Shown: positions 10,991 through 26,740 of the stretch, one piece after another | Position numbering within the stretch: the stretch's first letter is position 1 | How the letters are laid out: every line of letters begins with the position of its first letter | Source: an uncultured Pelagibacteraceae bacterium | Lineage (GTDB): Bacteria > Pseudomonadota > Alphaproteobacteria > Pelagibacterales > Pelagibacteraceae | Length of the DNA stretch: 37,082 bases | Direction of reading: 5' to 3' | Assembly: GCA_902588855.1 (NCBI GenBank) | Contig: CACIQS010000001.1 | Location: 1 to 37,082, forward strand | Position numbers and translations under genes: made by a program | Notes under the pieces: model-generated | Databases searched by the model: none | Told to the model about the DNA's origin: nothing | The model's input: only the letters and a program-made list of their open reading frames with translations

Positions 10991-11878
10991 TTAACTAATC
11001 CAATCAGGTTTTTTTATTCTTATTGAAGCTTCTTTAGTTTTAAATTCATTTTTTTCGTCAAAGTTTTCATCTAAATATTTGATTAAAGCGAAGGGGTAAT
11101 CACTATTTATTAATACTTTACCTATTTTATTTTCATTATTAAAAATACTTTCTCCTTCATTTAATTTTCCATTAATTACATTTACAGGCATCAATCTTTT
11201 TGAAAGTTTATTTTTTAATTTAATTCTAGCTGTGTTTTCTTGGCCTACATAACAACCTTTTTTAAAATCAATTCCATTTAGTTCTTCAAAATTACATTCA
11301 ATACCAAATAATTTGTTCTGTAATTTATTCAAATCTTTTGGAACTATTCCTAGTTTATGACTAAAAGAGTAGTATTCATTTATATCTGCATCATGAAGAT
11401 CTAGTTTTTTCAAGGATAAATAAAGTTTTTCTAAATTTATAATTAATCTTGCTCCCAATTGTCTGTTTCTTGGATCTAAAAAAATAGGATCCTCTCTATA
11501 TTTAATAGTAAATCCTGGTTGATCTTTTGATTCGTCAAATTTTAAAAATTTTTCATGAGAAAAAGCTGCCACAACAAATTCATTACTTAGATTAAGTATT
11601 TCAACTTTTGACCTTAGTTTATATAGAGATAACTGCTTAAATAATCCATCTACTTGATTCTTTTCACAATCTAAAAGATATCCTGTTTTATGTTTTACAA
11701 TTATAAATTCATATAAAAATTTCCCTTGTGGAGTTAACAAAGATGTAAAACAACTATTATCCTCACTTACTTTATTAATATCGTTACTGATAAGATTTTG
11801 TAGAAAATCTTTTCCATCTTCTCCTTTTATATAAAGAATTGATCTATCCTCTAAAATGTAAACGTTTTTAATATTCAT
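10991..11878 (-). CDS. ygfZ: YgfZ/GcvT-family folate-binding protein (Fe-S cluster maintenance)
   Basis: YgfZ signature KKGCYVGQENTARI; GcvT-like N-terminal sequence. Confidence 0.87.
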   Translation of the reverse strand: MNIKNVYILEDRSILYIKGEDGKDFLQNLISNDINKVSEDNSCFTSLLTPQGKFLYEFIIVKHKTGYLLDCEKNQVDGLFKQLSLYKLRSKVEILNLSNEFVVAAFSHEKFLKFDESKDQPGFTIKYREDPIFLDPRNRQLGARLIINLEKLYLSLKKLDLHDADINEYYSFSHKLGIVPKDLNKLQNKLFGIECNFEELNGIDFKKGCYVGQENTARIKLKNKLSKRLMPVNVINGKLNEGESIFNNENKIGKVLINSDYPFALIKYLDENFDEKNEFKTKEASIRIKKPDWIS

Positions 11879-11921: not shown

Positions 11922-13229
11922 ATGTTAGATCTTTTAATCAAAAATGGACAATGTTACATCGATGGTGAATTAAAAGATGTTGATGTTGCAATAAAAGATG
12001 GAAAAATTCAAAAGATTGGTCAAATTTCTGATGAAGCAAAAGAGACAATTAATGCAGAAGGTCAAACAGTTTTACCTGGTTGTATAGATACACAAACACA
12101 TTTTAGAGAACCGGGTTCAACTGATACTGAAGATCTTCATTCAGGAAGTAGGGCAGCAATAGCAGGTGGGATTACTAGTGTATTTGAAATGCCAAACACT
12201 AACCCTCCAACTTCAAACATGAAAGAATTTCAAAGAAAACTAGATCTCGCAAGAAATAGAATGTATTGCAATTACGCTTTTTACTTTGGGGCAACTGCTG
12301 ACAATGCAGACGATTTAGCTAGTTTAAAAAACTTAGAAGGATGTTGTGGGATCAAGCTTTTTGCTGGATCGTCTACAGGTAATTTGCTGGTTGCTGAAGA
12401 AGATGACATAGATAAAGTTTTTCAAAATGCTTCAAAAGTTGTTGCAGTTCATTCTGAAGATGAAGCCATATTAAAAATTAATAAAAAATTAATTAAAGAA
12501 GGTGATGTTCACACGCATCCAGTATGGAGAAGTGTGGAATGTGCAATAGCATCCACAAGAAGGATTGTTAGAATTGCAGAGAAGCATAATAAAAAAGCTC
12601 ATGTTCTTCATATTACAACAAAAGAAGAAATTGATTTTCTATCACAACACAAAGGAAACATTACATTTGAGATTACTCCCCAGCATTTAACTCTGTATGC
12701 TCCAGATTGTTATAACAAGCTTGGAACTTATGCTCAAATGAACCCACCATTAAGAGATAAATCTCACTATGACAGATTATGGTATGGAGTAAGAAATAAT
12801 TTTAATGATACCATTGGATCTGATCATGCGCCTCATTTAAAAGAGAATAAAGATAAGGTATATCCAAATACTCCTTCAGGAATGCCAGGAGTTCAAACTT
12901 TAATGCCAGTAATGTTAAATCATATAAATGATGGAAAATTATCTCTTAATCAATTGATAAGCTTTGTTTGTGAAAATCCAGTAAAAATTTTTGGAATAAA
13001 AAACAAAGGATTTATTAAAGAAGGTTACGATGCAGACTTTACTATTGTAGATATGAACAAAATTATTGAGATCAAAAATGAAAATATTGAAAGTAAATGT
13101 AAGTGGTCACCATTTAATGGTTTCAAATTCAAAGGAACACCTACACACACAATCATTGCAGGAAAAATTAAAATGCAGGATGGAAAAATTTTAGGAGATC
13201 CAGGGGGAAAACCTCTGCAATTCAGTTAA
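11922..13229 (+). CDS. Dihydroorotase-type cyclic amidohydrolase
   Basis: DTQTHFREPGSTDTED, FEMPNTNPPT, GIKLFAGSSTGN, HVLHITT, GSDHAPHLKENK. Confidence 0.88.
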   Translation: MLDLLIKNGQCYIDGELKDVDVAIKDGKIQKIGQISDEAKETINAEGQTVLPGCIDTQTHFREPGSTDTEDLHSGSRAAIAGGITSVFEMPNTNPPTSNMKEFQRKLDLARNRMYCNYAFYFGATADNADDLASLKNLEGCCGIKLFAGSSTGNLLVAEEDDIDKVFQNASKVVAVHSEDEAILKINKKLIKEGDVHTHPVWRSVECAIASTRRIVRIAEKHNKKAHVLHITTKEEIDFLSQHKGNITFEITPQHLTLYAPDCYNKLGTYAQMNPPLRDKSHYDRLWYGVRNNFNDTIGSDHAPHLKENKDKVYPNTPSGMPGVQTLMPVMLNHINDGKLSLNQLISFVCENPVKIFGIKNKGFIKEGYDADFTIVDMNKIIEIKNENIESKCKWSPFNGFKFKGTPTHTIIAGKIKMQDGKILGDPGGKPLQFS

Positions 13230-13267
13230 GTATTGTCAATTTAAATCAAAAGGGTTATTCTTAAAAT

Positions 13268-14671
13268 ATGATTGATTTAATTATCAAAAATGCAAAAGTT
13301 GCAACAGCCTCTGATATTTTTAATTGCGATATTGGTATAGATAAAGAAAAAATAGTTTTTTTAGAAAAAAATTCTTCAAAAGAAGCAAAGCAAATAATTG
13401 ATGCTAAAAATCAATATGTTTTACCAGGTGGTGTAGATGGTCATTGTCATTTAGACCAACGAACTAAAGATGGAACTGAAATGTCAGATAATTTTGAAAG
13501 TGGTTCACGATCAGCTGCTTTTGGAGGAACTACAACAATTATGCCTTTTGCTATTCAGTTTAAAGGTGAAAGTTTAAGAGAAGTTATTGATGAATATCAT
13601 ACAAGAGCTAATAATCAGAGTTATATAGATTATGCAATTCATCCAATCATCAGCGATGCAAGCCCAAATGTTGTTAATCAAGAATTACCAGCAATTGTGA
13701 AAGATGGATACACTCACTTTAAGATTTATATGACATATGAAGATTTGCAACTTAACGATAAGGAAATTCTTGATACTCTTGAAGCTGCAGGAAGGGAAAA
13801 AGCTGTAGTGATGGTTCATGCTGAAAATTATGAGTGTTTAAAGTGGTTAACAGAAAAATTGGAGGCAGCAGGAAAAACAGCCCCAATTCATCACGCTGAT
13901 TCAAGACCTGGTATTGTAGAAAGTGAAGCTACAAACAGAGCAATAGCATTATCTAGAATAACAAATACCCCAATTCTATTTGTTCATGTCTCAGACAAAG
14001 AAGCAATTGAAACAATTAGAAACGCTCAAAATAAAGGATATAAAATTTATGCTGAAACATGCCCTCAATATTTATTTTTGAAAAGGGATGATTTAAAAAA
14101 GGATAATTTTGAGGGAGCAAAGTATGTTTGTAGTCCTCCCCCAAGAGATCCTGAAAATCAAAGATATGTTTGGAATGGAATACAAAATGGAACGTTCGAT
14201 GTGTTGTCATCAGATCATGCTCCGTTCAATTTTAAAGGCAGTAAAGGTAAAATGATCCATGGAGATAAAACTCCATTTAAACATATTCCAAACGGAATAC
14301 CTGGTATTGAAACAAGATTGGCTTTGTTATTCTCTAATGGAGTTTTAGGTAAAAAAATTTCTATTAACAAATTTGTTGAAGTAACTTCAACAAATCCTGC
14401 AAAAGTATACGGCTTATATCCAAAAAAAGGCACTATTTCCATAGGATCTGACGCTGATATAGTTGTATGGAAAACGGGTATAGAAAAAACTATTACAAAT
14501 GATGATCTTCATCACAACGCTGATTATACTCCCTATGAAGGAATGAAAGTTAATTGTTGGCCAAGTATAGTTTTAAGTAGAGGAAAGATAATAGTTCAAG
14601 ATGGACAACTTCAAGGTGAAAAGGGTTTTGGAAAATTTTTAAAATCTGAAATTTCAAGCTACGTGTACTAA
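13268..14671 (+). CDS. hydA: Dihydropyrimidinase/hydantoinase-family cyclic amidohydrolase
   Basis: GVDGHCHLDQRTKDG, HFKIYMTYED, AETCPQYLFL, SSDHAPFNF, EGMKVNCWPSIVLSRGKIIV. Confidence 0.88.
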   Translation: MIDLIIKNAKVATASDIFNCDIGIDKEKIVFLEKNSSKEAKQIIDAKNQYVLPGGVDGHCHLDQRTKDGTEMSDNFESGSRSAAFGGTTTIMPFAIQFKGESLREVIDEYHTRANNQSYIDYAIHPIISDASPNVVNQELPAIVKDGYTHFKIYMTYEDLQLNDKEILDTLEAAGREKAVVMVHAENYECLKWLTEKLEAAGKTAPIHHADSRPGIVESEATNRAIALSRITNTPILFVHVSDKEAIETIRNAQNKGYKIYAETCPQYLFLKRDDLKKDNFEGAKYVCSPPPRDPENQRYVWNGIQNGTFDVLSSDHAPFNFKGSKGKMIHGDKTPFKHIPNGIPGIETRLALLFSNGVLGKKISINKFVEVTSTNPAKVYGLYPKKGTISIGSDADIVVWKTGIEKTITNDDLHHNADYTPYEGMKVNCWPSIVLSRGKIIVQDGQLQGEKGFGKFLKSEISSYVY

Positions 14672-14712
14672 TTATACTAGTAATTATTTTTTAATTAATC
14701 CGCATCTCATAA

Positions 14713-14742
14713 TTGACATAATTAATTTAGAATGATTATAAT
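14713..14742 (+). promoter_or_regulatory. Consensus sigma70 promoter for the dctP-led operon
   Basis: Exact TTGACA (14713-14718), 18-nt spacer, exact TATAAT (14737-14742). Predicted start near 14749. Confidence 0.75.
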
Positions 14743-14770
14743 ATGGAATGGATGATTTACTTTCTCTCTT

Positions 14771-14850
14771 CAAGTCTGGTTGTGCTGACTTGTAAATCAA
14801 GGGACAACACCAAGTCTGGTTGTGCTGACTTGTAAATCAAGGGACAACAT
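14771..14850 (+). repeat. Two abutting 40-bp direct repeats in the predicted dctP 5' UTR
   Basis: CAAGTCTGGTTGTGCTGACTTGTAAATCAAGGGACAACA(C/T) at 14771-14810 and 14811-14850, differing only at the last base. Confidence 0.97.
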
Positions 14851-14871
14851 TAAATTAACACAGGAGAAAAA

Positions 14872-15834
14872 ATGAAAAAAATACTAGTAATACTTTTAAG
14901 TGTACTTTTTTCTTTTCAAGTAGCAAATGCCAAAATAATACTTAAGGCTGGTCATACTGCGAACCCAGATGAACCTTATCACAAAGGCATGCTTGAATTG
15001 AAAAGATTAGTTGAAGCAGCAACTAATGGAGAGGTAGAAATTCAAATATTTCCTAATGGACAACTTGGTTCAGAAAAAGAAATGATTGAAGGACTGAAAT
15101 TGGGTACTGTAGATATAACAAGTCCATCTAATGGTAATTTAACTAACTTTGTTCCTGAATTAGGAATATTTGATTTACCATTTTTGTTCAGAGATAGACC
15201 CCATATGTATAAAGCTATGGATGGTGGACCTGGTCAAAAATTATCAAAAGCTATGGCTGATAAAGGTTTCCGTTTATTAGGTTTTTATGAGGCGGGTATA
15301 AGACATATCATGACTACAAAAAAACCAATTAATAGTTTTGACGATATCCAAGGTTTAAAAATAAGAACCATGGGTGTTCCAGCTCACGTAGCATCTTTTA
15401 ATGCTTTTGGAGCAAAAGCAACACCAATGGCTTATGGAGAATTATATGGAGCTTTACAACAAAACGTAGTTGATGGGGCAGAAGCTGCAAACACAAACTA
15501 CAATTCTAAAAAGTTCTATGAGGTTGCACCTAATTGGGCTCAAATTGGTTGGACAGCTTTGGTTGCAGATTTAGTAATGTCTGAGAAGAAATTTAAATCT
15601 TTACCAGCTAATGTTCAAAAAGCTTTATTAGATGCCGGTCCAAAAGCTGCGGCTGTTGAAAGAAAAGCATATTCGGACAGTGATAATTCTTTATTAGATA
15701 GTTTAAAAGCTAAAGGAGTTAAAGTTACTTATCCTGATCCAATACCTTTTAGAAATGCATCTAAAGCTGTATATGATGAATTTGTAAAAAGCACATCATC
15801 AAAAGCTATCTTAGATGAAATCTTAGGCATGTAG
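14872..15834 (+). CDS. dctP: TRAP transporter substrate-binding protein, DctP family
   Basis: Signal peptide MKKILVILLSVLFSFQVANA; DctP motifs FPNGQLGSEKEMIEGLKLGTVDI, IQGLKIRTMGVP, YGALQQNVVDGAE. SD ACAGGAG. Confidence 0.95.
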   Translation: MKKILVILLSVLFSFQVANAKIILKAGHTANPDEPYHKGMLELKRLVEAATNGEVEIQIFPNGQLGSEKEMIEGLKLGTVDITSPSNGNLTNFVPELGIFDLPFLFRDRPHMYKAMDGGPGQKLSKAMADKGFRLLGFYEAGIRHIMTTKKPINSFDDIQGLKIRTMGVPAHVASFNAFGAKATPMAYGELYGALQQNVVDGAEAANTNYNSKKFYEVAPNWAQIGWTALVADLVMSEKKFKSLPANVQKALLDAGPKAAAVERKAYSDSDNSLLDSLKAKGVKVTYPDPIPFRNASKAVYDEFVKSTSSKAILDEILGM

Positions 15835-15861
15835 TTTAAATAAAAAATTATGATATTATTA

Positions 15862-15889
15862 ATGGGCGCTTAAAGCGCCCATTTTTTTT
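15862..15889 (+). terminator. Intrinsic terminator/attenuator between dctP and dctQ
   Basis: Perfect palindrome ATGGGCGCTTAAAGCGCCCAT (15862-15882) followed by a T run to 15889, next to the ATG at 15890. Confidence 0.88.
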
Positions 15890-16357
15890 ATGAATATATT
15901 AAATAAATTTAGAACCGTTATTAACTGGTTAGTAATTTTGTTCTTTTGTTACATGGTACTTGCTGTTTTTTATCAAGTGCTAGGAAGATATGTGTTTCAT
16001 TATAAGCTTGGAATAGCAGCTGAGACAGCAACTTTTGCTCAAATCTGGATGGTTTTATTAGCTGCTGGAATTGCAATGAAAAAAAATATGCATGTAGGTG
16101 TAGACATTTTACTTAGAGTGCTTCCTAAAAAATTTCAAAAGATTATTATTGTTTTTAGTTTTATTTTTATTCTTTCTTTTTTATTGCTTGCACTAAAAGG
16201 ATGTTTTGCCCTTATATCGGTCGGTTTTGAATCAACATCACCTGCGCTAGGTATACCTATGTGGATACCATATTTGTCAGTACCAATTGGTATTATTTAT
16301 ATAACTTTAGAATTAGTAATCGTTACAATTTCTAAATACAAAGAGAGAAATAGTTAA
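15890..16357 (+). CDS. dctQ: TRAP transporter small permease, DctQ family
   Basis: Four TM segments; ETATFAQIWMVLLAAGIAMKKNMHVGVDIL typical of DctQ; lies between dctP and dctM. Confidence 0.92.
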   Translation: MNILNKFRTVINWLVILFFCYMVLAVFYQVLGRYVFHYKLGIAAETATFAQIWMVLLAAGIAMKKNMHVGVDILLRVLPKKFQKIIIVFSFIFILSFLLLALKGCFALISVGFESTSPALGIPMWIPYLSVPIGIIYITLELVIVTISKYKERNS

Positions 16358-17640
16358 TGGCTCTAATATTTGTATTATTTTTATTTTTACTAGTTTTTGG
16401 AACCCCAATTGTTTTTTCTTTAGGTATTGCCGCGAGTTTTACATTACTTTCTTATGATGTTCCAATGTCTCTTGTTGCACAAAGAATGTATGGAGGTTTA
16501 GATAAATTTACAATTATGGCAATTCCATTTTTTATTTTAACAGGAATAATTATGGAAAGAGGTGGAATAGCAAAAAGAATAATTGATTTTGCTACTGCTT
16601 TAGTTGGTTGGATAACAGGCTCCTTATATTTGGTTGCTGTAGTTGCGGGAACTGGTCTTGCAGCAATTTCAGGTTCTGGATCTGCAGATACGGCTGCAAT
16701 GTCCTCAATAATGTTGCCTCAAATGAAAAAAAGAAAATACAATATTGATTTTTCTGCAGCAATAATGGCTGCAAGTGGATCTTTAGGTACTATCATACCT
16801 CCAAGTATAATGATGGTAGTACTTGCAACAATATCTAACCAGTCTGTCGGAGCACTTTTTTTAGCAGGAATTATTCCTGGCTTGATGTGTGCAGCATTTT
16901 TATTAATTAGTGGGTATGCCAGAGCAAAATTGAACAAATCTGAAGCACAAGATATTACAAATTTTAGTTTTATTTTTTTAGTCAAATCTTTTGTTAAAGC
17001 TATACCAGCTTTAACCCTACCAGTAATTATCGTAGGAGGAATTATTGGAGGAATATTTACACCTACTGAAGCTGCATCAGTTTCAGTAATTGTTGGATTA
17101 ATAATTTCAATTTTTATTTACAAAGAAATAAAATTCAAAGATTTACCGGAAATAATTCTTAGAGCTGCAACTATAGCATCTACAGTTATGTTAATTATTG
17201 CTACAGCAAGTATTTTTTCTTGGTTTATTGCAAGTCAACAGATACCTCAAAAAATCTCTGAATTCATGTTAGGTTTTTCCGATAGTAAACTTTTATTTTT
17301 AATCAATGTAAATTTATTACTGATTTTGATTGGTATGTTTATGGAAAGTATATCTGCGATATTAATCTTAGTGCCAGTATTAATGCCTGTAGCAATTGCA
17401 TTTGGTGTTGACCCATTACATTTTGGATTGATAATTATATTAAATTTATCTATTGGAATGATAACACCTCCATACGGGATAACTCTTTTTGTTGCGAGTT
17501 CAATTGCAGAAAGATCAATTATAGATGTTTCAAAAAAATTATTTTTACCACTTACCTTGATGTTTTTAGTCTTAATTTTGGCAACTTATTTTCCACAAAT
17601 TTCCTTATATTTACCTAGTACTATAATGGGGTATAAATAA
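16357..17640 (+). CDS. dctM: TRAP transporter large permease, DctM family
   Basis: ISGSGSADTAAMSSIMLPQM, GSLGTIIPPSIMMV, GGIFTPTEAASVSVIVG, ITPPYGITLF. Start overlaps the dctQ stop (TAATG). Confidence 0.96.
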   Translation: MALIFVLFLFLLVFGTPIVFSLGIAASFTLLSYDVPMSLVAQRMYGGLDKFTIMAIPFFILTGIIMERGGIAKRIIDFATALVGWITGSLYLVAVVAGTGLAAISGSGSADTAAMSSIMLPQMKKRKYNIDFSAAIMAASGSLGTIIPPSIMMVVLATISNQSVGALFLAGIIPGLMCAAFLLISGYARAKLNKSEAQDITNFSFIFLVKSFVKAIPALTLPVIIVGGIIGGIFTPTEAASVSVIVGLIISIFIYKEIKFKDLPEIILRAATIASTVMLIIATASIFSWFIASQQIPQKISEFMLGFSDSKLLFLINVNLLLILIGMFMESISAILILVPVLMPVAIAFGVDPLHFGLIIILNLSIGMITPPYGITLFVASSIAERSIIDVSKKLFLPLTLMFLVLILATYFPQISLYLPSTIMGYK

Positions 17641-17642
17641 TT

Positions 17643-18524
17643 ATGTTTAAAGGTTCTTACTCAGTTACAATCACACCAACATTTGGTGATGGAAAAATAA
17701 AAGTTAAATCCTTAGAAAAATATTTTAATTGGCAAATTAAAAAAAAAATTGGAGGTTTAATTATTCTTGGTAGCACAGGAGAGTTTTTATCAATTTCAGA
17801 TCAAAATCGTTTAAAAATGATAAATGAATCTGTTTCCATCATAGATAATAGAGTTCCTTTATTAGTTGGTACAGCAGCAGAAAACACTTATGATGCAATT
17901 AGGTATTCTGTTGAGGCACAAGCTCAAAATGCAGACGGAGTAATGATCATTCCCCCATTTTATTCAACACCCACCCCTGAAGAATTAATAAATCATTTTA
18001 AAATGATTAGTAAAGAAATTGATATTCCAATAATGGTTTACAATAATCCTGCAACTTCAAATATAGATATTACACCAGATATTTTTGCTGAATTGTCAAA
18101 AATTAAAAATGTTAAATACTGTAAAGAGTCCACGATGGATGTAACTAGAGTTAAAGAAATAGACAAACAATCTAAAGGAAAAATAAAAGTTTTTGGTGGG
18201 ATAATGGGTTACGAATCTTATTTGAATGGAGCTATAGGATGGGTATCCGTACCATCAAATATTGTACCTCAAGATTGCACAAATATTTATGAAAATATTA
18301 AAATTAAGAAAAATTTTGAAAATGCTAAAAAAATCTATGATAAAATTACCCCAGTAATAAAATTAGTGGGTAAACATTTTTATGTCGCTGCAACAAAATA
18401 TATGCTCAATTTAATGGGGTTTGATGTTGGAAAACCTCTTTTACCACGACTTGATTTATCAGAGTCAAAGAAAAGAGAATGCAGAAAAGTTTTTAAAGAA
18501 TTAAATTTTAAGAAGATAATTTAA
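17643..18524 (+). CDS. DapA/DHDPS-superfamily lyase (candidate 1-pyrroline-4-hydroxy-2-carboxylate deaminase or related aldolase)
   Basis: GSTGEFLSIS, YNNPATSNIDI, YCKESTMDVTRV with Schiff-base Lys. Specific function inferred from neighbours. Confidence 0.85.
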   Translation: MFKGSYSVTITPTFGDGKIKVKSLEKYFNWQIKKKIGGLIILGSTGEFLSISDQNRLKMINESVSIIDNRVPLLVGTAAENTYDAIRYSVEAQAQNADGVMIIPPFYSTPTPEELINHFKMISKEIDIPIMVYNNPATSNIDITPDIFAELSKIKNVKYCKESTMDVTRVKEIDKQSKGKIKVFGGIMGYESYLNGAIGWVSVPSNIVPQDCTNIYENIKIKKNFENAKKIYDKITPVIKLVGKHFYVAATKYMLNLMGFDVGKPLLPRLDLSESKKRECRKVFKELNFKKII

Positions 18525-18527
18525 ATT

Positions 18528-21443
18528 GTGTCTGTGATTATAAATGAAGATAATTTTCAGATTAAATCTAAAAAAGTAAGTTTTTTTTTCGAAAATAAAG
18601 AACTTCAAGCATATGAGGGTGAAACAATTTCTTCAGCATTAATAAGAAATGGTTACTATAACTTTAGAATAGACAAAGATGGCAAAGATAGAGGTGTTTA
18701 TTGCAACATGGGGGTTTGCAATGAATGTATCTTAACAGTTAATGGAAAACCAAGTATTAAATCATGTTCCACAAAAATAGTAAATAATGATAAAATTTTC
18801 AGACAAAATTACCAAGCCCCTATACCAAAAATTAAAGAGGAAATTCAATTAAAAAAAGAAATTCAAGAGACAGAAATTTTGTTAATTGGTTTAGGACCTT
18901 CTGGAATGGGTTTTTTAAATTCAATAAAAAATACAAATCAAAAAATAATTATTATTGATGAAAAAGATTCTTTTGGTGGGCAGTATTATAAAAAAATAAG
19001 CAGTATCTTTAATTTATCAAACACGGATAAGCTTGATTATCAGCAAAAAGAAGGTTTGGATTTAGAACAAAAAATAAAATCTAAAAACTTTGAGTATATT
19101 TTAGAAACTAAAGTTTGGGGAATATTTCAAAAAGATGAAAATCTTTATGAAGTTTGTTGTTCTAAAAACAATAGAGACATTAGAATTTTAACTAAAAAAA
19201 TAATTGTAGCTACTGGCTCATATGAAAAACCATACTTTGTTGAAGGATGGAATTTGCCGAATGTATTAACAACAGGTGGTGCTCAAATAATGTCTAAAAC
19301 ACAAGGATTATTTTTAGGGAAAGATGTAGTTATTTGTGGAAATGGACCATTAAATTTTCAATTAGCCTTAGAGTTAATGAAAAATAATATTAATGTTAAA
19401 GCGATTGTAGAGACATCTAGCAAACCTTTTTTTAAAATTTTCTCTTCTTTTTTTTGTCTATTATCATCGCCAAAAATTTTTTTACAAGGAATTCTCATTT
19501 ATCTAAAAATTTTATTTTCAAAAGTAAAAATTTATCATGAAAGCGCTTTAGTAAAGATTGAAAATGAAAAAGATAAAAAAAAAATATTAATTAAAAATTT
19601 TAAAAATAATAATTCATTTTCTATCAATAATATTGATGCTGTAAGTTTAAACTATGGATTTAACCCTAACAATGATATCGGTAAAATTTTAGGATTAGAT
19701 GGTTCATTTAATAAACAAAAAAATTTCTTTGAAATAAAAAAAAATTTATTCAACGAAACAAGTAAAAGAAACATTTTTTTTCTTGGTGAGGCAGCAAAAA
19801 ATTCTGGTGCAAAAATATCTTTATACGAAGGAGAATTGACTGGTTTTTATTTAAATAAAAAAAAAAAATTATTTAATTATTTTAAATTTGCATTTTCATT
19901 ATTTAATTTATTTAGATCAATGATATTCCAGTTTTTCTTATGGAAAATTTTTGATAAAAATATTTCAAATTCTGATTTTATCACTGATGAAACATTATTT
20001 TGTAGATGTGAAAATATAAAATTTAATGAAATAAATAAATTAAAAGATCAAAAGAATATTGATGCAGGATTAATAAAAAGAATAACTAGAACTGGTATGG
20101 GTAGGTGCCAAGGTAGATATTGTGGATATGGTTTAAGTGAAGTTTTTAAAGATAAGATAACTGACTCAAATTATAAGCAATATTCTTTTGCACCTCAAAA
20201 TCCAATTCAAACAGTAGAAATAAAAAATACAGGTCATGAAAAAGAAGAGTGGTATGGTTATGTTCAAGACAAGCTACCAAAGTTTAATATTAAACAAAAT
20301 ATATCTAAAAATAAAGTTAAACACAAAATTGCAATTATTGGTGGTGGAATAATGGGTGTCTCAACTGCTTATAATATTCTTAAACACGAAAAAAATATTT
20401 GTTTGATTGATAGATTACAACCTAATTCTCAGGCCTCAGGCTCTAACGCAGGATCACTTCATGTTCAGCTTTTATCTTATGATTTTGATCCAAATAACTT
20501 AACTCAGTTAGACAATATGAAAACTTTACTGAAACTTCAAAAGAAGGCTGTTTCAGAATGGAAAGATATTGAAGAGGAAACTAAATCAAATTTTGAAATA
20601 TCTTACGATGGTGGACTAATGTTTGCGGAAAATGAAAAAGATTTGGAAAAACTCAACATGAAAATAGAGGTTGAACAATCTGTTGGAGTTAACTCTCAAC
20701 TTATTAATCAAGATCAAATTCATAAAATTAATCCACTTTTCTCCGACAAAATGATTTATGCTGGTTATTGTCCATCTGAAGGTAAAATAAATCCCTTAAA
20801 GGCAACGAATAGTATATTTGAAAAATGTAAAGAAAATGGATTAAATGATTATTGTGATGACCTGATTCAAGCAATTGAAAAAAAATCAGGAAAATTCAAA
20901 ATTATTACCGATAATCATGAAATTGAAGTTGATAAAATTGTTAATTGTGCAGGATCTTGGGCTAATAATATTGCAAGTTTTTTAGAATTACCCCTCAAAG
21001 TAAAAAGTGTCCCTCAACAGATGATAGTAACTGAAGCTCTAGAGTATAAACTTAAATTATTAGTCGCTCATATTGGAAGACACTTGACTCTGAAGCAGGC
21101 TACAAATGGTAATTTTATAATTGGCGGGGGTTGGACAGCAAATTATTCAAAAAATACTGATCATTTACATGCACTAAAAGATAGTTTTGAAGGGAATACT
21201 TGGGTTGCTAAAAGAGTAATCCCAAGTTTATCTAATGTTAATATTTTGAGATCTTGGGCAGCTATGAGTGTTGATGTTGGTGGCTATCCTTTGATGGGAG
21301 AGCACCCATTAATGAAAGATTTTTATACACTTGTTTCTTCAAATGGATATACCCTTGGTCCAACTTTAGGTAAAATTTTATCTCAACAAATTATTTATGA
21401 TAAAATTGAATATGATCTTTTTGATAAAAGTAGACTAGATTAG
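18528..21443 (+). CDS. Three-module fusion flavoprotein: 2Fe-2S ferredoxin-like, NAD(P)/FAD oxidoreductase with BFD-like [2Fe-2S] site, and DAO-family FAD oxidoreductase (HcnABC / D-hydroxyproline dehydrogenase-like)
   Basis: GTG start. N-terminal CNMGVCNECILTVNG...C; LLIGLGPSGMGFLNS and FGGQYYKK; FCRCEN...RCQGRYCG; second Rossmann KHKIAIIGGGIMGVSTAYN near aa 600 with DAO features (ASGSNAGSLHVQ, VNCAGSWAN). Confidence 0.87.
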   Translation: MSVIINEDNFQIKSKKVSFFFENKELQAYEGETISSALIRNGYYNFRIDKDGKDRGVYCNMGVCNECILTVNGKPSIKSCSTKIVNNDKIFRQNYQAPIPKIKEEIQLKKEIQETEILLIGLGPSGMGFLNSIKNTNQKIIIIDEKDSFGGQYYKKISSIFNLSNTDKLDYQQKEGLDLEQKIKSKNFEYILETKVWGIFQKDENLYEVCCSKNNRDIRILTKKIIVATGSYEKPYFVEGWNLPNVLTTGGAQIMSKTQGLFLGKDVVICGNGPLNFQLALELMKNNINVKAIVETSSKPFFKIFSSFFCLLSSPKIFLQGILIYLKILFSKVKIYHESALVKIENEKDKKKILIKNFKNNNSFSINNIDAVSLNYGFNPNNDIGKILGLDGSFNKQKNFFEIKKNLFNETSKRNIFFLGEAAKNSGAKISLYEGELTGFYLNKKKKLFNYFKFAFSLFNLFRSMIFQFFLWKIFDKNISNSDFITDETLFCRCENIKFNEINKLKDQKNIDAGLIKRITRTGMGRCQGRYCGYGLSEVFKDKITDSNYKQYSFAPQNPIQTVEIKNTGHEKEEWYGYVQDKLPKFNIKQNISKNKVKHKIAIIGGGIMGVSTAYNILKHEKNICLIDRLQPNSQASGSNAGSLHVQLLSYDFDPNNLTQLDNMKTLLKLQKKAVSEWKDIEEETKSNFEISYDGGLMFAENEKDLEKLNMKIEVEQSVGVNSQLINQDQIHKINPLFSDKMIYAGYCPSEGKINPLKATNSIFEKCKENGLNDYCDDLIQAIEKKSGKFKIITDNHEIEVDKIVNCAGSWANNIASFLELPLKVKSVPQQMIVTEALEYKLKLLVAHIGRHLTLKQATNGNFIIGGGWTANYSKNTDHLHALKDSFEGNTWVAKRVIPSLSNVNILRSWAAMSVDVGGYPLMGEHPLMKDFYTLVSSNGYTLGPTLGKILSQQIIYDKIEYDLFDKSRLD

Positions 21444-21448
21444 TTTAA

Positions 21449-22324
21449 ATGAGTTTATCGAAAAAATTGTTCTTAATTTCAATTTCAATTTTTTCATATT
21501 TCTTATTTGTTCTAATGGACTCTATAGCAAAATACTTATCAGAATACATTAATACATCTCAAATTGTATGGGGTAGATATTTTTTTCATATGGTGCTTTT
21601 GGTTATAATTTATTTTTTTATGTCAAAAAAAATAAATTTAACAAAAAATTTTTCAATTCAAATTGCTAGATCTTTATGTCTTGTCTCTACAACTTTTATG
21701 ACTTACTTAGCAGTAAAATATAATGATCTTATTAACTTTTATATAATATTTTTTTCAACACCTTTATTTGTATCCATATTTTCTTATTTTTTTTTAAAGG
21801 AAAAGCTAAGCAAATTTTCGATATTGTTAATTATTTTAAGCTTTATAACAATTATATTTGCTTTACAGCCCAATAAATCTTTTTTAACAATATATATTTT
21901 TCTTCCATTGTTTACTTCAATATTTTTTGCTCTCTATCAATTGTTTACTAAAATAGTTTCAAAAGACAAAGAACCTTTTGTTGCTTTATTTTACACTGGT
22001 ATATTAGGAACAATTATTTTTAGTTTTATAGTATTTTTTAATTGGCAATCAATTAATAATATAAATGTCTGGCTTATATTATTTTTTCTTGGACTTATTG
22101 GATATCTTTCTCATTTTATATTTGCCTATGTTTTACAATCTCTTGATTTATCATTCATTACAAACTTTCAATATTCTCAATTAGTATGGGCCTCATTAAT
22201 AAATGTTTATTTTTTCAACGATCCTATAAATTCATCAAAAATAGTCGGTATAATTTTAATAATTTTATTTGGAGTACTTTTTATTCAAAATCAAATTAAA
22301 AATCAAAATTTTTTAATAAAGTAA
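21449..22324 (+). CDS. EamA/DMT-superfamily permease
   Basis: About 10 hydrophobic segments; DSIAKYLSEYINTSQIVWGRYFFH pattern of EamA proteins. Confidence 0.85.
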   Translation: MSLSKKLFLISISIFSYFLFVLMDSIAKYLSEYINTSQIVWGRYFFHMVLLVIIYFFMSKKINLTKNFSIQIARSLCLVSTTFMTYLAVKYNDLINFYIIFFSTPLFVSIFSYFFLKEKLSKFSILLIILSFITIIFALQPNKSFLTIYIFLPLFTSIFFALYQLFTKIVSKDKEPFVALFYTGILGTIIFSFIVFFNWQSINNINVWLILFFLGLIGYLSHFIFAYVLQSLDLSFITNFQYSQLVWASLINVYFFNDPINSSKIVGIILIILFGVLFIQNQIKNQNFLIK

Positions 22325-22398
22325 TTAAATTAGGGTTCTCAAAAAAAGAAATAGAATATATGATTAAAATTAACTCAAAAAGATTATTTAATCTCTAA
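22322..22398 (+). pseudogene. Apparent C-terminal relic of an amidohydrolase gene
   Basis: A different frame from the EamA ORF reads FNKVIKLGFSKKEIEYMIKINSKRLFNL*, matching the usual C-terminal end of amidohydrolases (LGLSxEExxxIxxxNAxRLFxL). Stop forms TAATG with the next ORF. No upstream body of the gene remains. Confidence 0.5.
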
Positions 22399-23534
22399 TG
22401 AAACAAAAAATAGAAACAGAATTATTAAATATTTTAAAAGAAATTGTAAAAATCGATACATGCTATCCTCCCGGGAGTAGTAAGAAATTTTCAGAATATG
22501 TAAGAAAATACCTTAAAAATTCTGGCTTAAAAGTGAAATCATTTGGTGTTAATCAAAATAAACCAAATATTGTTGTCTCTAATAAATTTAATTCATCGAA
22601 ATCTTTAGTTTTTAATTCACATATAGACACAGTAAGGCCAATTGTAAGTGAATGGAAAACTAATCCATTTAATTTAAAAATAGATAAAAAATATTCTTAT
22701 GGCTTAGGTGCAGTAAATTGCAAAGGTAGTGCTGCTGTTCATCTATATTTGGCAAAAAATTTAAATAAATTATTTCCAAAATTAAAAAGTAAAATAGATT
22801 TTACTTTTGTAACAGATGAAGAAAATTTGGGACCAGATGGAACAAGATACTTGAGAAAAATTAAAAAAATTAAACCACATACTTTAATTCTTGGTGCGCC
22901 AACAAATAATGATTTTGTTATTGAAGAAAGAGGAGTATTTTGGATTGAGGTAGAGGTGTTTGGAAAAACTTCACATGCTGGGGAACCGCAAAAAGGAATA
23001 AACTCTATTGAGAAATCTTCAAAAATAATTAACCGATTAAATACCGATTACAAAAAAAAGTTGAAGAAATATAATGTTGGTGTGCACAAATCTACCATCA
23101 ACATTGGGATGATCGATGGTGGAGAAAATGTAAATGTTGTTCCATACAAAACTAAGATTGTAATTGATAGAAGAATTACTCACAAAGAAAATATTAAAAA
23201 ATCATTCAATGAAATTAAAACTTACATTAAAAAAATTGATAAAAATGTAAAAATTAAATTTTTAACAGGAACAAATCCTTTCAAATCAAATAAATCTAAT
23301 TTTTATTTAGCAGAACTTTCAAAATCAAAAAAATTAATTACAGGTAAAAATGCAAAATTTTTATCATCAATAGGTGTGAGTGATGGTAGATATTTTGCAG
23401 ACGATAGGGTCAATATAATTAACATTGGACCTGGAACAGGATCTGAAGGTCATAAGTCCAATGAAAAATTAATTAATAAAGATTTAATTGATTATTTTTT
23501 AATACTCCAAGATTTTTTATTGAAAATTAATTAA
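22398..23534 (+). CDS. M20-family (ArgE/DapE/CPG2-like) protein with altered metal ligands
   Basis: FNSHIDTV, YGLGAVNCKGSAA, TDEENLGPDGTR, LGAPTNN, GKTSHAGEPQKG, GHKSNEKL. Confidence 0.87.
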   Translation: MKQKIETELLNILKEIVKIDTCYPPGSSKKFSEYVRKYLKNSGLKVKSFGVNQNKPNIVVSNKFNSSKSLVFNSHIDTVRPIVSEWKTNPFNLKIDKKYSYGLGAVNCKGSAAVHLYLAKNLNKLFPKLKSKIDFTFVTDEENLGPDGTRYLRKIKKIKPHTLILGAPTNNDFVIEERGVFWIEVEVFGKTSHAGEPQKGINSIEKSSKIINRLNTDYKKKLKKYNVGVHKSTINIGMIDGGENVNVVPYKTKIVIDRRITHKENIKKSFNEIKTYIKKIDKNVKIKFLTGTNPFKSNKSNFYLAELSKSKKLITGKNAKFLSSIGVSDGRYFADDRVNIINIGPGTGSEGHKSNEKLINKDLIDYFLILQDFLLKIN

Positions 23535-23859
23535 TCTTCACAGTAAAACTATTTACCAAGATTACTCCAACCACAATTAAAAATAAACCTAAGATTACTT
23601 GCCAAGCTAAAGTTTGTTTAAAAAATATATATCCAAGTATTGCTATCGTAAAAATTCCAAGTCCACTCCATGTTGCGTACATAATCGCGATAGGAATTTT
23701 ATCTGCTACAAATGTTAAAAGATAGAAAGCACAAAGATAAAAGAATGCAAGAGCAGCTGTTGGGATTAGTTTTGTAAAATTTTGAGTTATGGGTAATAAC
23801 ATTGTACCAGCAACTTCAAAAAATACTGCACCTGCAAGAAATAGATATGTTTTAACCAT
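23527..23859 (-). CDS. Small multidrug resistance (SMR/EmrE-SugE) family transporter
   Basis: 110 aa, four TM segments, FLAGAVFFEVAGTMLL and YATWSGLGIFTIAILGYIFFKQ. Confidence 0.92.
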   Translation of the reverse strand: MVKTYLFLAGAVFFEVAGTMLLPITQNFTKLIPTAALAFFYLCAFYLLTFVADKIPIAIMYATWSGLGIFTIAILGYIFFKQTLAWQVILGLFLIVVGVILVNSFTVKIN

Positions 23860-25966: not shown

Positions 25967-26740
25967 ATGAAAAAACTTAAATTGTTTGCTCTAGCAGCTA
26001 TGACCTTAATAGGTTTTTCAGGTATAGCTATTGCAGCAGACGCAACGATGTTGATGCAAGATGACTTCGTAGGAATTTCATTCTGGGTTATCTCTATGGG
26101 AATGTTAGCAGCTACTGCTTTCTTTTTCATGGAAGCAGGAAACGTCGCAGCAGGCTGGAGAACATCAGTTATTGTTGCCGGTCTAGTAACTGGTATTGCA
26201 TTCATACACTACATGTACATGAGAGAAGTATGGGTTGCTACTGGAGACTCACCAACTGTTTACAGATACATTGACTGGTTAATCACTGTGCCTTTACAGA
26301 TGGTAGAATTCTATTTAATTCTAGCAGCTATCGGTAAAGCAAACTCTGGAATGTTCTGGAGATTGTTAATCGGTTCACTAGTAATGCTTATCGGTGGTTA
26401 CTTAGGTGAAGCAGGATATATTAATGCTACACTAGGTTTCATCATCGGAATGGCAGGTTGGGTATACATTCTTTATGAAGTATTCTCAGGTGAAGCTGGT
26501 AAAGCTGCAGCGAAGAGTGGTAACAAAGCTCTTGTAACTGCATTCGGAGCAATGAGAATGATTGTTACAGTAGGTTGGGCGATTTACCCATTAGGTTATG
26601 TATTTGGTTACCTAACTGGTGGTGTAGATGCTAATTCACTTAACGTTGTTTATAACTTAGCTGACTTCATTAACAAAATTGCATTCGGTCTAGTAATCTG
26701 GGCTGCGGCAACTAGTTCTGCAGGAAAAAGAGCTAAGTAA
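25967..26740 (+). CDS. Proteorhodopsin, predicted blue-absorbing
   Basis: RYIDWLITVPLQMVEFYLILAA: Asp97 and Glu108 equivalents, with Gln at position 105. Retinal Lys in NLADFINKIAFGLVIW. SD GAGGGAG. Confidence 0.97.
   Translation: MKKLKLFALAAMTLIGFSGIAIAADATMLMQDDFVGISFWVISMGMLAATAFFFMEAGNVAAGWRTSVIVAGLVTGIAFIHYMYMREVWVATGDSPTVYRYIDWLITVPLQMVEFYLILAAIGKANSGMFWRLLIGSLVMLIGGYLGEAGYINATLGFIIGMAGWVYILYEVFSGEAGKAAAKSGNKALVTAFGAMRMIVTVGWAIYPLGYVFGYLTGGVDANSLNVVYNLADFINKIAFGLVIWAAATSSAGKRAK

Follow-up and report, generated by a model that had tools for sequence, protein, structure and literature searches.

A predicted single-chain gamma-alpha-beta flavo/Fe-S dehydrogenase within an inserted, probably catabolic island of a SAR11 bacterium

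The gamma, alpha and beta modules of dehydrogenases in the OpnDH/D-HypDH/L-ProDH/HcnABC superfamily are usually made as separate proteins. The motif set of the superfamily comprises two GxGxxG, CX4CX2CX11-12C, CxC...CX4C and Arg-X-Trp, the last of these being the FMN motif described for OpnDH, D-HypDH and L-ProDH (PMC4575208). OpnDH was reported to contain 2 FAD, 1 FMN and 1 [2Fe-2S] per alpha-beta-gamma unit (PMC4575208). In the stretch of DNA analyzed here (hereafter the window; 37,082 nucleotides from an uncultured Pelagibacteraceae bacterium), a single 971-aa ORF with a GTG start (18528-21443, forward strand, as are all features given below for this gene and its island) holds the three modules in one chain, rather than as separate chains in an alpha4beta4gamma4 or similar assembly, and the three separate genes that define HcnABC are not found in it.

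The modules follow one another in the order gamma, alpha, beta, each with a Pfam match above gathering score. The gamma-like [2Fe-2S] domain (aa 15-94, 18570-18809; Fer2_4, 3e-21) carries the CX4CX2CX12C motif as C59-X4-C64-X2-C67-X12-C80, invariant across 34 fused homologues. The alpha-like module (aa 110-545, 18855-20162; Pyr_redox_2 at aa 116-425, 6e-20) has a GxGxxG at 121-126, a second Rossmann-like GNGPLN at 271 and a BFD-like site (aa 492-532, 20001-20123), whose cysteines, C492-X-C494-X32-C527-X4-C532, are invariant across the same 34 homologues; the surrounding aa 486-545 are matched by the NCBIfam model GlpA at a score below that model's cut-off. After a linker (aa 546-597, 20163-20318) comes the beta-like DAO module (aa 598-971, 20319-21440; PF01266 at aa 600-953, 4e-50), in which R908-S-W910 (21249-21257), a putative FMN site, aligns to the RTW of the structure 1y56_B, with Arg and Trp invariant. 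The first-pass annotation had read this order of modules in the ORF, had placed a CRC...CQGRYC site at aa about 490-530 and had started the DAO oxidase at about aa 600, and all of this is borne out. The protein has the FAD, FMN and Fe-S motifs by which the superfamily is recognized, and at least two sites for flavin and two for Fe-S are predicted in it. By analogy, its cofactors would be the OpnDH set (2 FAD, 1 FMN, 1 [2Fe-2S]); a second [2Fe-2S] is possible at the BFD-like site, and both this center and the FMN are predicted from motif homology. The spacing between CxC and CX4C, X32 in the window protein and 31-33 across 71 fused proteins, was quoted as X15-20 for the superfamily (PMC4575208); outside the fusions we measured X22 in LhpA-type proteins, X27 in NoxA of pTi and X32 in an unfused alpha protein of a second SAR11 genome (G401, below). 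The linker keeps the C-terminal tail of the alpha module and extends it by a stretch bearing an EKPEW-like motif, present in 52 of the 71 fused proteins (EKEEWYG in the window) and in none of the unfused alpha proteins examined.

The AlphaFold modeling that had been suggested together with the domain search yielded a confident one-chain model (mean pLDDT 88.7, pTM 0.89, from an alignment of 34 sequences). A Foldseek search of the PDB with this model ranked 1y56_A first (TM 0.79 on target, matching the alpha-like module) and 1y56_B fifth (TM 0.86 on target, matching the beta-like module), with heterotetrameric sarcosine oxidase between them. These are the two chains of Pyrococcus horikoshii L-proline dehydrogenase (PDH1), and since 1y56_A already has an N-terminal 2Fe-2S domain, the most fitting view of the window protein is that of the PDH1 alpha and beta chains joined into one.

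That adjacent genes might have been fused into this ORF by a sequencing or assembly error, a concern raised by the first-pass annotation itself, is so improbable as to be negligible. The independent SAR11 single cell AG-390-P07 (genome G401; L041/L046) carries an equivalent 971-aa ORF at 86% identity, about 70 homologues are likewise single ORFs, finished plasmids among them, and the one-chain model is confident. Moreover, dN/dS between the two SAR11 fusions is 0.08 overall, and by module (NG86) it is 0.12 for gamma, 0.11 for alpha, 0.13 for the linker and 0.04 for beta, ratios which indicate that purifying selection acts on every module and on the linker joining them. We found no support for an artefact and rejected it. 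Low dN/dS values likewise indicate purifying selection on the neighboring DapA, dihydropyrimidinase and M20 genes.

A contig scan of genomes with the single protein as query gave no match, while an alignment-based profile succeeded: scanning named genomes with it returned 557 relatives, from which 80 loci were kept. In these loci and those of the plasmids and SAR11, a single ORF matches all three modules in 71 cases, a count that includes the window protein and one duplicate. The hosts are Alpha-, Beta- and Gammaproteobacteria, among them soil, plant-associated and marine bacteria; near-full-length matches without an internal stop occurred in 3 of 385 alphaproteobacterial species genomes sampled, the window genome included. 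Of the module phylogenies suggested earlier, that of the beta domain (106 rows; quick search, no bootstrap) places the 74 fused rows in one clade (SH-aLRT 99) and argues clearly that the fusion arose once. Within this clade the window and G401 sit together on a long branch, and the closest unfused relatives of the clade in the tree are two-gene systems with a gamma-alpha protein of about 570 aa and a beta protein of about 380 aa. In a Rhodospirillales MAG, one gamma-alpha gene is followed by three tandem beta (DAO) genes (L106 232-5838), possibly exchangeable beta subunits of the kind reported for Bradyrhizobium opine dehydrogenase (PMC4575208). The fusion had been put forward as a rarity, a view that does not hold: the same architecture occurs in dozens of genera, is already in public records as ‘FAD-dependent oxidoreductase’ and is hence not new. 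Characterization is another matter, as none of the roughly 70 fused homologues was found to have been characterized, and no paper on a fused member was found in the open-access literature, which lacks most subscription journals. The uncharacterized pathway around the fusion is of more interest than the fusion itself.

The fused gene is the sixth of eight co-directional genes in a 10.3 kb segment (13230-23534) lying between a core dihydroorotase gene (11922-13229) and a core gene at 23527-23859. It is preceded by genes for a dihydropyrimidinase/D-hydantoinase (13268-14671), the TRAP solute-binding protein DctP (14872-15834), the TRAP small permease DctQ (15890-16357), the TRAP large permease DctM (16357-17640) and a DapA-family Schiff-base lyase (17643-18524), and is followed by an EamA-family transporter (21449-22324), which also adjoins the fusion in G401, and an M20 (ArgE/DapE-type) amidohydrolase (22398-23534), which lies within the insert of both SAR11 genomes. 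Gaps of 3 bases from the DapA stop to the fusion start and of 5 bases from the fusion to EamA suggest one operon. The relative G012, whose genome is complete, has the dihydroorotase directly abutting the downstream gene (L139 7663/7662), and this empty site identifies 13230-23534 as an inserted island. None of 60 close relatives has the fusion, the dihydropyrimidinase gene or the DapA gene. The island does not stand out by base composition, its G+C of 0.283 lying between those of the two flanks (0.269 and 0.310). Being core (19 of 21 genomes), the dihydroorotase gene at 11922 was considered as an island member but rejected.

In G401 the same island genes occupy the same site, on two contigs, with an addition before M20: an alpha-beta-gamma set of three genes and a further DapA, together with genes for an amino-acid ABC transporter and a DUF6282 protein. 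An unfused counterpart from the superfamily, in three genes and accompanied by a DapA, thus lies beside the fusion (L041 6381-10105), and the fusion, a three-gene set and a second DapA are also paired in several Acetobacteraceae (L058, L067, L068, L071, L082, L102), a recurrent pairing that hints at linked substrates. The site after the core dihydroorotase is itself variable. It is empty in G012, holds a 365-aa ORF in G002 (L138 4675-5900) and the island in the window and G401, while in G003 the genes usually found downstream are missing over at least 13 kb (L141 6975-20000). This SAR11 genus seems to have a hot spot of insertion here. Just past the island, the window has a bacteriorhodopsin-family (proteorhodopsin-like) gene (25967-26740) adjoining an acyl-CoA ligase gene. 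On the other side, the product of 10991-11878, conserved in relatives and encoded next to NadA and quinolinate phosphoribosyltransferase genes, has a weak GCV_T folate-binding match just under the Pfam cut-off.

Partners of the fusion were counted at those fused loci that are flanked on both sides by 4 kb or more, 54 in all. A DapA-family gene is near the fusion in 50 of them and a transporter also in 50; a dihydropyrimidinase is present in 28, a dihydropyrimidinase or M20 in 35, and neither of the two within 7.5 kb in 19. Marinobacterium rhizophilum (L114) has the same TRAP-DapA-fusion-dihydropyrimidinase set as the window, its TRAP and dihydropyrimidinase genes being 53-59% identical to those of the window. 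DUF3830 (PF12903), whose function is not known, occurs with the fusion in 21/54 loci (e.g., L035 13107-13517); it co-occurs with fusion and hydantoinase, and may act on the same cyclic compound as the latter. Searches of open-licence papers turned up nothing relevant on DUF3830 or on links of SAR11 to hydroxyproline or dihydropyrimidinase.

Two of the window partners could be examined by residue. The dihydropyrimidinase scores above the cut-offs of TIGR02033 (545 vs. 393 bits) and NF009941 (704 vs. 647), and aligned with 1k1d it keeps the HxH, Lys, two His, Asp, Tyr, Ser and Asn that we take to be the metal ligands, carboxylated Lys and catalytic residues of D-hydantoinase; judged by scores and residues, it qualifies as a D-hydantoinase/dihydropyrimidinase. 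In the DapA partner the Schiff-base Lys is retained, as is the Tyr, and the sequence YNNPATSN puts Thr at the position of the DHDPS Arg (presumably Arg138, in YNxPxR). Against the NCBIfam model of DHDPS it scores 193 bits, under the cut-off of 206, and it does not appear to be DHDPS proper; a YNNPAT-type motif is common to most DapA partners of fused genes.

With fair confidence, we regard the single-chain gamma-alpha-beta flavo-dehydrogenase as the redox step of an acquired island, with the hydantoinase and M20 acting upstream and the DapA-type lyase downstream. The gene context points to catabolism of hydantoin, N-carbamoyl or N-acyl amino acids, and the island probably breaks down hydantoin-like or D-amino-acid compounds. 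Following uptake by the TRAP transporter, a cyclic ureide or imide would be opened by the dihydropyrimidinase, and an amino acid would then probably be freed by the M20 hydrolase. The DAO module with its FAD would then oxidize the C-N bond of the amino or imino acid, with electrons passing via the FMN at the alpha/beta interface and the [2Fe-2S] centers to an acceptor, presumably the respiratory chain. The product would be an imino or 2-oxo acid, which the DapA-family lyase would cleave or deaminate into central metabolism. That the fusion channels electrons and fixes stoichiometry, as first proposed, is plausible. The accessory hydrolases vary among loci, with 19 of 54 having neither, which means that the steps upstream may not be the same everywhere, or may be wrongly drawn. 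The likeliest substrate is an amino acid in the D form or one that is cyclic or N-substituted, and not 4-hydroxyproline; the DAO fold spans many substrates, which counts against a firm substrate reading.

A rival reading is that of a fused D-hydroxyproline (or D-proline) dehydrogenase, in which case the DapA protein would be a Pyr4H2C deaminase and the island would degrade trans-4-hydroxy-L-proline or its betaine. A DAO, a DHDPS-family lyase and a transporter do form the known hydroxyproline trio (PMC4113996), the heteromeric D-HypDH has these three modules (PMC4575208), and an EamA gene adjoins lhpB in Pseudomonas aeruginosa too. However, 4-hydroxyproline epimerase was not found near any fused gene, nor PF05544 in the window genome (62% complete); identity to the P. 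aeruginosa D-HypDH is 17% (beta), 21% (alpha) and 27% (gamma); LhpB lies far outside the fused clade, though on a very long branch; the motif and pocket of the DapA partner differ from those of the DHDPS-family gene in the Sinorhizobium meliloti hyp region; and the dihydropyrimidinase and M20 have no role in a hydroxyproline pathway. We consider this assignment quite improbable, and of the first description of the ORF as an HcnABC/D-HypDH-like fusion, the superfamily modules in one chain stand while the D-hydroxyproline link is disfavored. Somewhat less remote, though still unlikely, is a single-chain dehydrogenase for opines, Amadori compounds or sarcosine-type secondary amines; the hydrolases would in that case attack some other, unrelated portion of the molecule. 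The fusion is closer to NoxB/NoxA (24%) than to LhpB, its nearest folds are sarcosine oxidase and L-proline dehydrogenase, and G401 has beside the fusion a three-gene set that, like those of Acetobacteraceae, clusters with the Nox-type protein of pTi in the beta-domain tree. Conversely, 24% identity gives no substrate information, opine loci such as that of pTi are without DapA and hydantoinase partners, and the fusion does not group with the opine dehydrogenases (Nox/Odh), the beta protein of the pTi Nox type falling outside the fused clade.

Returning to the amino-acid route that we favor, a broader version of it can be offered tentatively, as one we hold possible but would not yet bet on: that the island is an undescribed pathway which occurs in both marine and plant-associated bacteria and has been taken up by rare SAR11 cells, and in which hydantoinase and M20 release a D- or N-substituted amino acid, the fusion oxidizes it and a non-DHDPS DapA-family lyase cleaves the product. 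If this is true, the pathway would start from a cyclic ureide, imide or N-acyl amino acid that is abundant in nature but not yet recognized as a nutrient. The partners (hydantoinase, DapA-like lyase, M20 and transporter) outline a pathway testable in culturable Rhizobium or Variovorax, and the one-gene form of a multi-subunit flavo-iron-sulphur dehydrogenase is a target for the study of electron transfer in the superfamily. In SAR11, the locus clearly exemplifies how a streamlined ocean bacterium can carry a whole catabolic island at a defined chromosomal site, and the empty version of that site is known.

Among known systems, the fused ‘FAD-dependent oxidoreductase’ of Rhizobium, Agrobacterium vitis, Aureimonas, Azospirillum, Variovorax, Gluconobacter and others (e.g., WP_174089364.1, WP_137143392.1) has the same architecture over 97-99% of its length, with the DapA partner as in the window and often a dihydropyrimidinase too, at 29-34% identity to the window protein. 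Most of these loci have an amino-acid ABC transporter whereas SAR11 has TRAP, and DUF3830, common among them, is absent from the window island. In P. horikoshii PDH1 (1y56, PH1363/PH1364) both chains match the window model and the Arg-X-Trp FMN motif is common to both systems, but its two chains are separate, identity to the fusion is about 20%, and an L-proline substrate is not supported for the window protein. OdhABC and Nox/Oox have every motif class of the fusion and its three modules gamma, alpha and beta, encoded by three genes instead of one (PMC4575208); the Nox-type proteins of pTi have 24-34% identity per module to it, and the pTi locus examined, unlike the fusion loci, has no DapA or hydantoinase partner. 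In P. aeruginosa, LhpB and the alpha and gamma subunits provide the same three modules, with a DHDPS-family partner in the pathway, yet D-HypDH is encoded by three genes in an operon with 4-hydroxyproline epimerase and has 17-27% identity to the fusion. Finally, in heterotetrameric sarcosine oxidase (1vrq, 2gag) the N-terminal half of alpha and the beta fold resemble the fusion, while alpha also has a GCV_T-type folate half and beta, unlike that of the fusion, is a separate chain.
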